Notes under the pieces: model-generated
Seen by the model: the letters and a program-made list of their open reading frames with translations, nothing else
What the model was told of the DNA's origin: nothing
Databases searched by the model: none
Assembly: GCF_014204865.1 (NCBI RefSeq)
Contig: NZ_JACHMG010000001.1
Span: 5,730,501-5,794,500, forward strand
Source of the DNA: Amycolatopsis jiangsuensis
Lineage (GTDB): Bacteria; Actinomycetota; Actinomycetes; Mycobacteriales; Pseudonocardiaceae
Length of the DNA: 64,000 nucleotides
Reading direction: 5' to 3'
Made by a program: the position numbers and the translations under genes
Shown: positions 18,244 through 24,409 of the stretch, piece after piece
Layout of the letters: each line of letters opens with the position of its first letter
Position numbering within the stretch: position 1 is the first letter of the stretch

Positions 18244-19065
18244 ATGCACCAGGAGTTCTTCTCGCCGATGGCGTTCGACTTCCTGTGGGAGTCGATGGAG
18301 CTGGGCGAGCTGCCGTACCCGCTGCGGGTCCGTTCGCACGGGGACACCCAGGACGAGCGGGTGTCGCTGCGGCACCGGATCGACGCCGAGCTGAAGGCAC
18401 GCGACCTGCGCGACGCGCGCGGTCGCGTGGAACCGCGGCTGGACGACTGGCTCGGCCTGCTCGCGCGGGCCCCGGTCACGATCGACGGGCTGCACATCCC
18501 GGAGTTCGAGGCCCATCCGGTCGGCCTGCTCGCGGCGGGTGACGAGCGCACCGGCGTGCTCGCGATCCAGGACGCGGACGGCATCTGGCTGCGCGAGACC
18601 CCGGCCGACGGGCTGGTCTCCGCGGTCGTGAACCTGCTGCCGGCAGGCAGGCGCGGCACCGAGGCGTCGGTCACCCTGCCGCTGGACGAGGCACTGCACA
18701 CCCGGCCGATCCGGGTGCCGGTGGCCGCGGGCGGTGCGGGCGAGGCCGAGGAGAAGGGCCGCCGGGCGAGACGGCAGTCACTCAGCGAGCGCGCCACGGT
18801 CGACCCGCGGGAGACCTACGGGCTGATCGCCGGCCAGCCGCGGCTGCGCGGCGGTCAGCTCGCAGCGAACAGCCGCACCCAGCTCGGCTCCCGGCAGCGG
18901 TCCCGGGTACTGGGCTGGTTCGACACCGCCACCGGACGGTATTTGAGCTTGTCACGGGCCGGAACGGACGGCAGGGAGTGGGTGACCGTGGCCCCCGCGG
19001 ACCCGAAGACACTGCGGACGCGGCTGGGTGAGATGGTCTCGTCCGTGGCGGACAGCACCCGCTGA
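18244..19065 (+). CDS. ESX secretion-associated protein EspG-like, copy 2
   Basis: A 273-residue paralogue of the preceding gene: [19 protein letters not shown] aligns with its N-terminus and [12 protein letters not shown] with its C-terminal motif. The middle is more charged ([12 protein letters not shown]). The two copies are in tandem, 63 bp apart. They may serve two clients or work as a pair. Role inferred from family and context. Confidence 0.85.
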
Positions 19066-19255
19066 CTGCCCGGGTCCGGGAACCCTCACGCGGGATCGGC
19101 CGTTGACCTGCGAGAGGCTCACCAGGGCCCATCGCCCGGCCGGACGGTACCCTGGTGGGAAGGGTGCCTGGCGGCACCCCGGGTCAAGATCGCGATGGCG
19201 GGTATCACAGGAGCCGCCCAACCAGGGAGGGTCGAGGCCGCAAAGGCCGAGTCGT

Positions 19256-21652
19256 ATGAACCGGAAGAGCGTGCTCAGGAACCCACTGCTGTGGATCGTC
19301 GCGGGGTTGCTGGCGTTGTTCGCCTACAACACGATCTTCGACAGCGATCGTGGCTACACGCAGGCTCCCATCTCGGTGGCGAACCAGCAGATCGCCCAGG
19401 GGCACATCAAGGAAGCCAGCCTCGAGGACAAGGAGCAGCAGCTCAAGCTGCAGCTCACCCAGAAGGTCGATGTCGACGGCACCCAGACCGACCAGATCAT
19501 CGCGCAGTACCCGGCGGACGCCACGAGCTCCATCTACACCGCGCTGACCAACGCGAAGGTCGACGGCCAGCCGATCAAGCTCACCACCAAGGTGACCCAG
19601 CAGTCGCTGTTCACCCAGATCCTGATCTTCGCCATCCCGCTGGCGCTGGTGCTGGGTCTGCTGATGTGGATGATGAACAACGCGCAGGGTGGCGGGAACC
19701 GCGTCCTCAACTTCGGCAAGTCCAAGGCCAAGCAGCTGAACAAGGACATGCCGAAGACCACCTTCGGGGACGTCGCGGGTGCCGACGAGGCAGTCGAAGA
19801 GCTGTACGAGATCAAGGACTTCCTGCAGAACCCGGCGCGCTACCAGGCGCTCGGCGCGAAGATCCCGAAGGGCGTGCTGCTCTACGGCCCACCGGGTACC
19901 GGTAAGACGCTGCTCGCGCGTGCCGTCGCCGGCGAGGCGGGAGTGCCGTTCTACACGATCTCCGGCTCCGACTTCGTCGAGATGTTCGTCGGTGTGGGTG
20001 CCTCCCGGGTGCGTGACCTGTTCGAGCAGGCCAAGCAGAACGCACCGTGCATCATCTTCGTCGACGAGATCGACGCGGTCGGCCGCCAGCGCGGCGCCGG
20101 CCTCGGCGGTGGCCACGACGAGCGTGAGCAGACGCTGAACCAGCTGCTCGTCGAGATGGACGGCTTCGACGCCCGCGGCGGCATCATCCTGATCGCGGCC
20201 ACCAACCGGCCGGACATCCTGGACCCGGCGCTGCTGCGTCCCGGCCGGTTCGACCGGCAGATCCCGGTGTCCGCACCGGACCTGCGTGGCCGCAAGGCGA
20301 TCCTCGAGGTGCACGCGAAGGGCAAGCCGATCGCGCAGGGCACCGACCTGAGCGGGCTCGCCAAGCGCACCGTCGGCATGTCCGGTGCCGACCTGGCCAA
20401 CGTGCTCAACGAGGCCGCGTTGCTCACCGCCCGGCAGAACGGGCACGTGATCTCCGACGCCGCGCTGGAGGAGTCGGTCGACCGGGTGGTCGGCGGTCCG
20501 GCGCGCAAGAGCCGGATCATCTCCGAGAAGGAGAAGAAGATCACCGCCTACCACGAGGGCGGGCACGCGCTCGCCGCGTGGGCGATGCCGGACATCGAAC
20601 CGGTGTACAAGCTGACCATCCTGCCGCGCGGCCGTACCGGCGGGCACGCCCTGCTGGTGCCCGAGGACGACAAGCAGCTGATGACCCGGTCGGAGATGAT
20701 CGGCAGGCTGGTCTTCGCGATGGGTGGCCGCACGGCCGAGGAACTGGTGTTCCACGAGCCGACCACCGGCGCGTCCTCGGACATCGAGCAGGCCACCAAG
20801 ATCGCCCGCGCGATGGTCACCGAGTACGGCATGAGCGCGCGGCTGGGTGCGGTCAAGTACGGCCAAGAGCAGGGCGACCCGTTCCTCGGCCGGTCCGCGG
20901 GACGGCAGGCCGACTACTCGCTCGAGGTGGCGCACGAAATCGACGAGGAGGTGCGCAAGCTCATCGAGACCGCGCACACCGAGGCGTGGCACGTGCTCAA
21001 CACCTACCGCGACGTGCTGGACAACCTGGTCCTGGAAGTGCTGGACAAGGAGACGCTGCAGCGCAAGGACCTCGAGCGGATCTTCGCGACCGTCGAGAAG
21101 CGCCCGCACATCACCGTCTTCAACGAGTTCGGGGAGCGCACCCCGTCGGACAAGCCACCGGTGAAGACCCCGGGTGAGCTGGCGATGGAGCGTGGCGAGC
21201 CCTGGCCGCCGCCGGAGAAGGAGAAGCCGGTGCTGCAGCCGGCGCCGACCCCGGTCGCCACCGCGCCCGGCGGCGGCGAGCTGCCCGGCGGTCCGCCGTA
21301 CCCGGCTCCCGACCCCAACGCCAACCCGTACGCCCCGCCGCAGAACGGCGGTCGCCCGAACGGTGGGTCGAACGGCAGCGGCCGCTGGCCGCAGTCGTAT
21401 GGTGGGCAGCAGCCGGGCGGTCCGGCGGGCGGCTACCAGCAGGGTGGTCCGGGTGGTGCGCAGAGCGGTCCGCCGAACTACGGGGCTCCTCCCGGCTGGA
21501 CTCCGGCGACGTCCCCGGGTGGTCAGCAGCCGTGGCGTCCCGCCGAGGACCGTCCGCGTGAGCAGGGCTGGTTCGCCGACGGCGCGAACGGCCAGCAGCC
21601 GGACGAGGGGCAGCAGCGGCGTGACGTGGACGGACCGGACAACAGGCAGTAA
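19256..21652 (+). CDS. ftsH: ATP-dependent zinc metalloprotease FtsH
   Basis: The membrane-bound AAA+ protease of quality control. Two membrane segments (about residues 9-27 and 115-136) flank an outer domain. The AAA module has GPPGTGKT and the Walker B region [13 protein letters not shown]. The protease zinc site is HEGGH. After about residue 660 a 140-residue tail rich in Gly, Pro and Gln is actinobacteria-specific and probably disordered. The ATG at 19256 starts the first membrane segment at the normal place. The tail coding region overlaps the folE start by 32 bp, which couples the two genes. Confidence 0.97.
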
Positions 21653-22733
21653 CGACGGCGTCCGCCCGGTCTTCGACCAGGACCGGGCGGAGCACGCCAT
21701 CCGCGAGCTACTGCTCGCCTGCGGTGAGGACCCGGGTCGGGACGGTCTCCAGGACACCCCGGCCCGGGTCGCTCGCGCTTACCGGGAAATGTTCGCCGGC
21801 CTCTACACCGATCCGGACGAGGTGCTGGCGCGGACGTTCGACGAATCGCACGAGGAACTCGTGCTCGTCACCGACATCCCGATGTACTCGACGTGCGTGC
21901 CCGGCGGGCAGACCGTCAACGCGGTCGGCGGCGATGTCCCGGCCGGCAGCATCGAGGTGGGGGATCGGCTGTGGACGCTGGCCGGCGGACAGGTCGAGGA
22001 GACCACGGTCACCCGGATCAGCTCCCATCGGACTCCTGCGCTGGTCGAAGTCACCACTTCGGCCGGCAGTTTCCGGGTGACACCGGATCACCCGCTCGCC
22101 ACGCCGAAGGGCTGGCAGGAAGCCGCGGACGTAACGGGCTCGCTCATCGAGTGGACTCCGCTGCGGCAGCTGAGCAGGCGCCCGGCCGCCGTCGGTGCGC
22201 GCGGTGGCGACGTGTCCGGCGGCTGGTACCGCAAACACGGCTTCCCGCAGGCGCTTGCGACTGGCTTGGCCGAATCCGAGTACGTCGAGGTGCGTTCGGT
22301 CGTGCTGATCGCCGAGCCGTCCACTGTGTACAGCTTCAAGTGCGAGCCGCATCCGACCTTCCTGATCGGCGGGCACCTGACGCACAACTGCGAACACCAC
22401 CTGCTGTCCTTCCACGGCGCGGCGCACATCGGCTACATCCCCAATTCCGACGGCAAGGTCACCGGGTTGTCGAAGCTCGCCCGGCTCGTCGACCTCTACG
22501 CCAAGCGGCCGCAGGTGCAGGAGCGGCTGACGTCGCAGGTCGCGGACGCGCTGGTGCGCAGGCTGGAGCCGCGCGGGGTGATCGTGGTCATCGAGGCCGA
22601 GCATCTGTGCATGTCGATGCGCGGAATCCGCAAGCCGGGGTCGCGCACCACCACCTCGGCCGTTCGCGGGCTGTTGCGCACGTCGGCTTCGTCGCGGGCG
22701 GAGGCGCTGAACCTGATCCGGAGCAGCCGGTGA
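21621..22733 (+). CDS. folE: GTP cyclohydrolase I precursor interrupted by an in-frame mini-intein
   Basis: FolE converts GTP to dihydroneopterin triphosphate, the first step of folate synthesis. The 370-residue precursor has a FolE N-part (residues 1-91, ending DIPMYST), a 165-residue insertion, and a FolE C-part (from C257-E-H-H-L-L-S-F-H-G). Removing the insertion restores the family signature YSTCEHHLL and gives a 205-residue enzyme of normal size. C257 and H260 in the CEHH motif plus C330 in HLCM are the zinc ligands, so an unspliced precursor cannot form the metal site. The GTG start lies inside the ftsH 3' end; folP follows with a GTGA overlap. Confidence 0.95.
21894..22388 (+). other. 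Mini-intein inside FolE (165 residues, no homing endonuclease)
   Basis: Starts with Cys1 ([10 protein letters not shown], block A) and ends His-Asn (GGHLTHN, blocks F/G) before Cys+1 of the extein. Block B is [12 protein letters not shown] with T63-x-x-H66. Block F is VYSFKC; the position that is usually Asp (18 residues before the last Asn) is Ser here. Blocks C, D, E and H of LAGLIDADG endonucleases are absent, and the segment between blocks B and F is only about 75 residues. All residues for class 1 splicing are present. Base composition matches the host gene, suggesting long residence. Confidence 0.93.
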
Positions 22734-23566
22734 TCCCGCGTCCGGACCGGTGCGCGGTGGTGGGCGTGCTCAACGTGACGCCGGATTCGTTCTCCGACGG
22801 CGGTCGTTACGTCGACCTCGACCAGGCGCTGGAGCATGCGCGCGAGATGTGGCGGCGCGGGGCGGACCTGATCGACGTCGGCGGTGAGTCGACGCGGCCC
22901 GGCGCGGCGCGGGTGGAGGCGGACATCGAGGCCGCGCGGGTGCTCCCGGTGATCCGGCAGCTGGCGTCCGAAGGCATGGCGCTGTCAGTGGACACCACCC
23001 GTGCCACCGTCGCGGAGTCCGCGCTCGAGGCCGGGGCGCGGGTGATCAACGACGTTTCGGGCGGGCTCGCCGATCCGGACATGGCGCGGGTGGCCGCCGC
23101 GTCGAAGGCACCGTGGGTGCTCATGCACTGGCGGGGGCACAGCAAGGACATGAACGCACTCGCCGGCTACACCGATGTGGTCGCCGAGGTGCGGGACGAG
23201 CTGTTGTCCCGGGTGGACGCCGCGCTCGCCGCGGGCGTCGAGGAGAGTGCGCTGGTGCTCGATCCCGGGCTGGGCTTCGCCAAGCGCGCGGAGCACGACT
23301 GGGCCCTGCTGCAGGGACTCGGTTCCCTGCTTTCTCTGGGTTTTCCGGTGCTCGTGGGTGCTTCGCGCAAACGCTTCCTCGGCCGTCTGCTGTCCGGAAA
23401 GGACGACGAGCCGCGACCGCCGGACGGCCGGGAGGTGGCGACCGCGGCAGTGTCCACGCTGGCCGCCGCGGCCGGCGCGTGGGGAGTGCGGGTGCACGAG
23501 GTGGGCGCATCACTCGACGCCGTGGCGGTCGCCGCGGCCTGGCAGCGCGGGAGGGCCGATGGCTGA
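22730..23566 (+). CDS. folP: Dihydropteroate synthase
   Basis: Condenses dihydropterin pyrophosphate with p-aminobenzoate; the sulfonamide target. Family signatures are [13 protein letters not shown] near residue 13, [20 protein letters not shown] and the C-terminal [10 protein letters not shown]. Length 278. The GTG overlaps the folE stop (GTGA), so translation is coupled to the intein-bearing gene. It overlaps folB by 8 bp. Confidence 0.97.
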
Positions 23567-23918
23567 CCGGATCACGCTCACCGGACTGCGGGTGTTCGGC
23601 CGGCACGGTGTGTTCGAGCACGAGAAGCGTGACGGGCAGGAATTCGTCGTGGACGTCACGGTGTGGCTCGATCTGGGCCCGGCTGCGGCGTCGGACGATC
23701 TCGGCGAAACCCTGCACTACGGCGAACTGGCCGAGCTGGCCGCCGGGATCGTCGCAGGAGAGCCCCGTGATCTGATCGAGAGCGTCGCGGGCCGGATCGC
23801 CGACGAGGTGCTCGGCGACCAGCGGCTGAGCGCCGTGGAGGTCACCGTGCACAAGCCGTCCGCCCCGATCCCGCTGACGTTCGACGACGTCGCGGTCACC
23901 GTCCGGCGCGAACGGTGA
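23559..23918 (+). CDS. folB: Dihydroneopterin aldolase
   Basis: A 119-residue enzyme that cleaves 7,8-dihydroneopterin to 6-hydroxymethyl-dihydropterin. Typical features are [15 protein letters not shown] at the start, the Tyr/Glu region LHYGELAE, and [13 protein letters not shown] near the end. GGGAGGG precedes the ATG. It overlaps folP upstream and folK downstream by 8 and 4 bp. Confidence 0.96.
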
Positions 23919-24409
23919 GCCGCGCGGTCCTTTCGCTGGGCTCGAACCTCGGCGACCGGCTCGGCCACCTGCGTACCGCGATCGACGCGGTGCGTCCGGC
24001 CCTGGTCGCGGTGTCCGGGGTCTACGAGACGAAGCCGTGGGGTGTGGAGGACCAGCCGGACTTCCTGAACGCGGTCTGCGTCGTCGACGACCCGTCCCGC
24101 GACCACTGGGCCTGGCTGCGTACCGCCCAGTCCGCCGAACATGCCGCCGGCCGGGTCCGCGAACTGCGCTGGGGACCACGCACGTTGGATGTCGACATAG
24201 TGACAGTGCCCGGCGTGACGTCGGACGATCCGGAGCTGCTGCTGCCGCATCCGGGTACCCCCGACCGCGCGAGCGTGCTGATCCCCTGGCTGGACATCGA
24301 ACCGGACGCCGACCTCCCCGGCCACGGCCGGATCGCCGACCTGCTGGCCAGGCTCCCGGAAGCGGACCGGGCAGGCGTCGTCCTGCGCCCGGAGTGGGCA
24401 CTGACCTGA
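23915..24409 (+). CDS. folK: 2-amino-4-hydroxy-6-hydroxymethyldihydropteridine pyrophosphokinase
   Basis: HPPK, 164 residues, transfers pyrophosphate from ATP to the pterin. It begins with the family signature [16 protein letters not shown] and holds the HPPK motif [12 protein letters not shown], whose two aspartates bind magnesium, followed by LLLPHPG. Last gene of the folate operon; a strong terminator follows. Confidence 0.97.

Follow-up and report, generated by a model that had tools for sequence, protein, structure and literature searches.

The DNA stretch analysed here, referred to as the window, comprises 64,000 nucleotides of Amycolatopsis jiangsuensis (assembly GCF_014204865.1, contig NZ_JACHMG010000001.1, positions 5,730,501 to 5,794,500; genome of 8.05 Mb in two contigs) and contains a folE gene for GTP cyclohydrolase I that is split by an element with the features of a mini-intein. 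The genes ftsH, folE, folP, folB, and folK follow one another on the + strand, on which all window features described below are located. The upstream neighbour ftsH (19028..21652) is given in its longest reading, its true start probably lying further in, and folE (21621..22733) is followed by folP for a pterin-binding enzyme (22730..23566), folB (23559..23918), and folK (HPPK, 23915..24409).

The interrupted folE gene

An open folE frame extends from the GTG codon at 21621, chosen as start by comparison with relatives, to the stop at 22733 and codes for a precursor of 370 amino acids (aa). It is composed of an N-extein of 91 aa ending with DIPMYST (21621..21893), an in-frame insert of 165 aa (codons 92-256; 21894..22388), and a C-extein (22389..22733), the exteins together amounting to 205 aa. 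PF01227 of Pfam matches on both sides of the insert (227.8 bits across two stretches), and the CEHH and EHLC motifs are present, which identifies the host gene as folE. In Escherichia coli, the zinc ligands of FolE are Cys110, His113, and Cys181. The insert is located immediately before the Cys of CEHH (22389-22391), the first zinc-ligand Cys; the Cys of EHLC (22608..22610), the second one, is unbroken in the window and serves as an intein site in other bacteria.

An earlier note on this DNA, made from the letters alone, had described such a 165-residue insert with Cys1, TxxH, a terminal His-Asn, and Cys+1; its coordinates and frame were confirmed, and all four elements are present. The Cys1 codon (21894..21896) specifies, by analogy, the N-terminal nucleophile. 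Block B reads T63-P-D-H66 (22080..22091), and the C-terminal blocks F and G (22323..22388) include S147 (22332-22334), C150 (22341-22343), P154, H161, and H164-N165 (22383-22388), the last of which is followed by Cys-Glu-His-His. The same note had seen no room for a homing endonuclease, and indeed neither a LAGLIDADG nor another endonuclease domain was found in the window intein by a Pfam search. Instead, a scar of the lost domain is located at approximately residues 95-110 (22176..22223), where relatives of 324 residues have about 157 additional residues and where the ends of the deleted part are kept; the predicted local distance difference test (pLDDT) score is below 50 at residues 98-104. 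Directly behind the scar lies the motif W111-YRK-H115-G-F117 (22224..22244).

The predicted structure of the insert corresponds to the intein (HINT) fold and agrees with class 1, with a likeness to hedgehog and BIL domains as well. Assignment to class 1 is further suggested by Cys1, by Asn165 followed by Cys+1, and by T63/H66 together with H164. According to PMC7664689, residue 1 and the C-terminal residue are the only omnipresent ones in class 1 inteins. The earlier note had called the insert a class 1 type with Ser in place of the block F Asp, and class-1-like is also our designation, the Ser (S147) being a trait of the whole family. A class 3 intein was ruled out by the presence of Cys1 and by Leu instead of Trp two residues after H66, the class 3 Trp position. 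A model of the 370-aa precursor was too poor to be used (pLDDT 67 on average and under 50 for much of the C-extein).

A family of inteins at one FolE site

For the analysis of conservation, the best 120 of 8000 FolE homologs scored were combined with P0001 to give 121 rows, two of which (P0001 and P0003) are the window's own records; because the query carried an intein and similarity to it set the ranking, the rows show conservation and not prevalence. The insert occupies the same bond in 121/121 rows, and Cys1, TxxH, and the terminal His-Asn followed by CEHH are likewise invariant. Intein lengths vary from 130 to 326 residues, with 48 rows of at least 318 and 51 rows below 200. The long inteins are the endonuclease carriers, and the LAGLIDADG domain PF14528 was detected in 29 of the 45 members of a further alignment (A2). 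Based on sequence comparison, the window intein can be assigned to a same-site, FolE-specific intein family, designated FolE-a, which probably derives from a LAGLIDADG homing intein, the window copy having lost the endonuclease of its 324-residue relatives. As an aside, the HGF of the W111-F117 motif, found in 118/121 rows, persists after endonuclease loss in 48 of the 51 short inteins.

A scan of named genomes yielded 43 loci, all of them (43/43) in FolE at the FolE-a site, including one (L069) that runs out of frame after CEHHLLP. Actinobacterial hosts with names belong to the Pseudonocardiaceae, Thermomonospora, and Actinomadura. By their titles, metagenome-assembled genomes (MAGs) add Rokubacteria/Rokuibacteriota, Methylomirabilis, Nitrospiraceae, Planctomycetota, and Gemmatimonadetes, which brings the number of host groups to six when the actinobacteria are included. 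Rokubacteria/Rokuibacteriota and Methylomirabilis possibly belong to a single phylum, and a lone MAG contig may have been assigned to the wrong bin. FolE inteins also occur on three IMG/VR contigs (L078-L080), the first two of which agree at the junctions; a fourth contig (L081) was set aside as it concerns another host protein. Viral contigs such as L078 and L080 are a possible route by which the FolE intein spreads. No tblastn match of the window intein was obtained on plasmids or annotated phages. The neighbours on L078 and L080 are of the queuosine type (QueC-like on the one, QueD- and QueE-like on the other), and one of the two contigs carries a transposase.

Within the GTDB family of the window bacterium, a match to the intein profile was obtained for 45 of the 390 genomes, and 42 of these were counted as having FolE inteins. 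The omitted ones are G073, which has a remnant, and G032 and G137, whose weak, uninspected matches (E about 1e-11) lie in open reading frames (ORFs) of 1,370 and 1,358 aa, their folE being uninterrupted. At the genus level, an intein or remnant is present in 12/80 genomes, the G073 remnant counted, and in a phylum-wide draw 9/396 genomes match the profile, some of them not with FolE inteins. Related FolE include intein-free alleles: the extein length is equal with and without insert, 71 of 74 rows having 201-203 aa (cut as 88 aa of N-extein plus C-extein), and comparison with empty sites indicates a clean insertion. The three deviating rows are G030, for which only the C-extein was supplied, the remnant-bearing G073, and P0122, whose C-extein contains a deletion.

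Evolution and selective constraint

The extein tree was based on 74 FolE exteins, 29 of them intein-free (30 of the 68 intein-free genomes of the genus were supplied, L008 was dropped, and G030 entered as C-extein only). Intein-bearing rows are scattered among intein-free ones, as exemplified by G029 beside L031, and the intein state changes nine times on the best tree (9-11 in bootstrap trees), three changes being forced by strongly supported branches alone. The endonuclease state appears to change five times on the tree (bootstrap 3-6). In Crossiella, the exteins of G187 and G188, which have 324-aa inteins, and those of G184 and G186, which have 172-aa inteins, are nearly the same. The window extein clusters at moderate support with P0006 (186-aa intein), P0122, and G073, and in the intein tree the window copy is joined to P0122 (support 90/77).

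The ratio of nonsynonymous to synonymous substitution rates (dN/dS) is 0.12-0.21 for the window extein (five relatives) and 0.20-0.29 for the window intein (three relatives). Comparison of the intein with the G073 remnant, possible for 53 codons, gives 0.55.

Additional and damaged folE copies

The claim of the earlier note that folate synthesis depends on splicing is not supported for the window bacterium. Its genome contains two more PF01227 genes, coding for 197 and 225 aa, which lack the insert, are open, and are full-length by Pfam; the sequence was read through for the 197-aa one only. One of the two (L184:3586-5327; C1 about 2171585-2173326) may serve a 7-deazapurine pathway or cluster, because it adjoins a gene for a QueE-like radical SAM protein that scores below the NCBIfam cut-off; a methyltransferase and a 2-oxoglutarate oxygenase are encoded nearby. 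The other paralog has the motifs CEHH and EHTC. Since two other folE genes exist, splicing is probably not essential in the window bacterium. At least two PF01227 matches are present in 79/80 genomes of the genus; 11 of them, whose split gene gives rise to two matches, have three or more. The note had also weighed its proposal against a second intact folE coinciding with lost activity of the split copy. The first part of this case was borne out by the two open, full-length copies; loss of activity is not indicated, the exteins appearing constrained as described above.

Damaged copies exist within the same genus. In G073 (L151, about 2153-2956), the intein-bearing folE has Cys1 replaced, nearly the entire C-extein gone, and much of the intein deleted; the open, full-length paralog is the only intact folE, and FolE2 was not found in this genome. 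Frameshifts are located in the intein of G060 and in the N-extein of G030, either of which could be a sequencing error.

The opposite situation is met in 17 of the 42 intein-bearing genomes of the family, which have no PF01227 match beyond the two halves of the split gene. FolE2 was not found in 16 of these 17 either, although one of the 16 genomes has a completeness of just 86%. Mini-inteins of 163-181 aa are present in ten of these 16 genomes and must splice if folate is made via FolE in these hosts. Under this premise, the genomic evidence makes it very probable that mini-inteins of the FolE-a kind splice, and the 16 genomes provide the best, although indirect, evidence for splicing of the window copy.

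Proposed mechanism and alternative explanations

We consider it likely that the insert is a class-1-like mini-intein of the FolE-a family, formerly a LAGLIDADG homing intein, that most likely excises itself from the 370-aa precursor and is probably dispensable for this host. Splicing would start with an N-S acyl shift at Cys1, followed by transfer to the +1 Cys, i.e. the zinc-ligand Cys of FolE, cyclisation of Asn165 assisted by His164, and a final S-N shift. The products would be active FolE of 205 aa and a free intein of 165 aa, and the zinc site of FolE could not form before splicing.

Several observations weigh against this interpretation. The customary Asp and His of block F are replaced by S147 and P154, and the profile Intein_splicing (PF14890), which covers the insert alone, reaches 23.5 bits (E 5e-5) and thus remains below its gathering cut-off of 35.8 bits, just as NCBIfam gives no intein call above cut-off for the window protein. 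The tree partners P0122 and G073 have damaged folE genes, with several forks being weakly supported. Mini-intein pairs show dN/dS values of 0.15-0.40 (G073 remnant omitted) versus 0.04-0.11 for four full-length pairs, i.e. weaker constraint, and the window extein compared with its nearest intein-free relatives gives 0.19-0.21, pairs of intein-free exteins 0.13-0.15. Finally, the main folE is damaged in 3 of the 12 genomes of the genus with an intein or remnant versus 0/68 intein-free ones (Fisher p 0.003, kinship uncorrected).

The last two kinds of evidence, namely the relaxed mini-inteins and the excess of damaged genes, would also fit a decaying intein, i.e. a copy that splices poorly in a gene heading for loss while a paralogous FolE makes folate. 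The two other open folE genes of the genome and the state of G073, with a changed Cys1 and a deleted C-extein next to an open, full-length paralog, point in the same direction. Nevertheless, we regard decay as unlikely, as the splice residues and FolE motifs of the window copy are intact and the dN/dS values of both extein and intein are far below 1. Tuning of splicing by zinc or redox state had been proposed in the earlier note. A domesticated regulatory mini-intein, whose zinc- or redox-conditional splicing sets the level of active FolE, would be a special case of the self-splicing intein preferred here and not an alternative that excludes it; we consider it rather improbable. In its favour, the residue at +1 also binds zinc, thiols are present at Cys1, the invariant C150, and +1, and in PMC7360933 zinc is described as blocking the splicing of another intein via a catalytic Cys; yet with intein-free paralogs present, the effect of such a switch would be dampened in the window bacterium, and the sporadic distribution fits a mobile element.

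It appears very improbable that the insert belongs permanently to FolE as an additional domain or represents a BIL-like HINT domain: scores under the Pfam and NCBIfam intein cut-offs and the structural likeness to hedgehog and BIL domains could be read in this way, but the conserved CEHH motif is split, the junction residues are invariant, endonuclease-bearing forms exist, and 345/390 genomes of the family are without a match to the intein profile. The chance of an assembly artefact, for which no supporting point was found, is negligible, since 41 further genomes of the family and the 43 named loci, some of which represent the same genomes, carry this insert as well.

A second site and free-standing derivatives

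In the MAG locus L218, FolE contains two inteins, the second of which (292-1287, - strand) directly precedes the zinc-ligand Cys of EHLC (EHL|C). A protein search with L218 yielded 79 homologs, 49 of which are FolE proteins with an intein at the EHL|C bond according to a strict pattern, the other 30 being unclassified; both zinc cysteines of FolE are thus intein sites. This second type, FolE-b, has the host enzyme and a zinc ligand as +1 residue in common with FolE-a but is a different intein: 49/49 complete FolE-b inteins end with Ser-Gly-Asn before Cys, without a penultimate His, and 42/49 are 320-339 aa long. Named hosts are Ktedonobacterales and Rubrobacter.

In another actinobacterial genus (g53), matches to the full-length intein profile were obtained in 19/246 genomes (L219, L220, L222, L226-L241), and all 19 begin 32-360 nucleotides downstream of an intein-free folE. 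Among the adjacent folE genes, 17 were judged intact by their motifs, and Pfam shows another one to be uninterrupted. Nine near-full-length open ORFs have lost Cys1, the block B His, C150, and the terminal His-Asn and have kept the endonuclease part; frameshifted, stopped, or fragmentary versions are among the other ten. The endonuclease part of these nine ORFs is constrained, with a median dN/dS of 0.157 over 36 pairs; the medians of the two HINT parts are 0.32 (36 pairs) and 0.27 (35 pairs). For comparison, four inteins gave 0.19 for the endonuclease and 0.26 and 0.10 for the HINT parts. The folE residue at position -3 is non-aromatic in 19/19 loci with a free-standing derivative, while Tyr or Phe is present in 18 of 29 folE genes of g53 without a downstream HEN motif (Fisher p 7e-6, kinship uncorrected). 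These 29 genes were derived from 30 of 60 sampled loci, one with a HEN motif having been set apart. In the FolE-a rows, residue -3 is Tyr or Phe in 121/121 cases; the junction pattern required Y, F, H, or W at this position, and no row failed. The viral-contig intein of L080 has Thr at -3.

As judged from these sequences, the free-standing ORFs appear to be splicing-dead, escaped derivatives of the FolE intein with a putative endonuclease. They resemble the WHO elements of yeast, described in PMC7282806 as intein-derived endonucleases next to cut-resistant FBA1, in that an intein-derived, splicing-dead, endonuclease-like ORF lies beside an altered, intein-free target gene; they differ in being bacterial and in that their cleavage activity is putative.

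An unusual block F

Ser147, Cys150, Pro154, and His161 (window numbering) are present in 45/45 diverse FolE-a inteins, and in the 121 rows they were found 119, 121, 120, and 121 times, respectively. Among other inteins of the same bacterial family, 25/25 have VYD and no Cys in the last 26 residues; these controls represent a small number of insertion sites, with three kinds of sequence following them, five of 30 loci having been omitted because the match stopped before the C-terminus. The replacement of the block F Asp by Ser and of the His by Pro and the invariant additional Cys are therefore family-wide traits of FolE-a. In 38 of the 51 short inteins, Cys1 and C150 are the only two cysteines.

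The free-standing ORFs allow a comparison with forms that no longer splice. Using 47 columns conserved to at least 97.5% in 163 splicing-type sequences (P0122 and P0003 left out; some proteins of the 121 rows recur in A2), we found 12 columns changed or absent in all nine free-standing forms, namely C1, G32, G58, T63, H66, E76, E86, H115, G116, C150, H164, and N165. Kept in all nine are 22 columns; C150's neighbours P152, P154, and H161 stayed, and S147 is retained in 5/9. The pattern of loss for C150 hence matches that of the catalytic residues, whereas those for H161 and P154 do not. As the nine forms are probably a single lineage and represent one event, this support for a role of C150 is only suggestive. 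It is conceivable, though on balance doubtful, that FolE-a is a distinct mechanistic type in which the invariant C150, in combination with Ser/Pro for Asp/His, takes part in splicing or senses redox state or metal, in a host with both zinc cysteines as intein sites. A ribonucleotide-reductase-like ORF (L224, genome G568) contains an intein whose block F likewise shows Cys-Glu-Pro (NFHCEPF) and which might be a distant relative.

Relation to known inteins

The class 1 Mtu RecA mini-intein (2in0) differs from FolE-a, which has Ser/Pro for Asp/His in block F, the additional invariant Cys150 and His161, and a folate enzyme as host. Class 3 inteins (WCT, e.g. MchDnaB1; PMC7664689) share with FolE-a a block F Cys and, in 99/121 rows, a Thr before the penultimate His. 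FolE-a is distinguished from them by Cys1, by a block F Cys three residues past the class 3 position, and by Leu instead of Trp two residues after the block B His.

No report of a FolE intein was found in the literature searched, InBase and most subscription journals being outside its reach, and the accessible parts of PMC3322345, PMC10343443, PMC5107563, PMC3087415, and PMC517821 report none. The preference of inteins for conserved sites was already known (PMC2814812). FolE-a is a new allele family within a known kind of intein, with an unusual block F.

Across several bacterial groups, FolE seems to host inteins recurrently, at each of the two cysteines that bind zinc. Its inteins may have been overlooked: where FolE-a proteins are named, they are named plain GTP cyclohydrolase I, possibly because the intein, as seen for the window copy, scores below the standard profiles. 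For one gene, nature provides a series that comprises a homing intein, numerous mini-inteins, damaged copies backed up by a paralog, and a free-standing form that is splicing-dead, which makes it possible to test questions of endonuclease loss, dependence, and intein escape; in addition, splicing could be selected for by growth through the activity of FolE. The classification of inteins might be extended by the non-canonical block F. Outside the window, the genome of A. jiangsuensis contains a further intein-like element in an ORF of 1711 aa (G000:C1:3778083-3779375).
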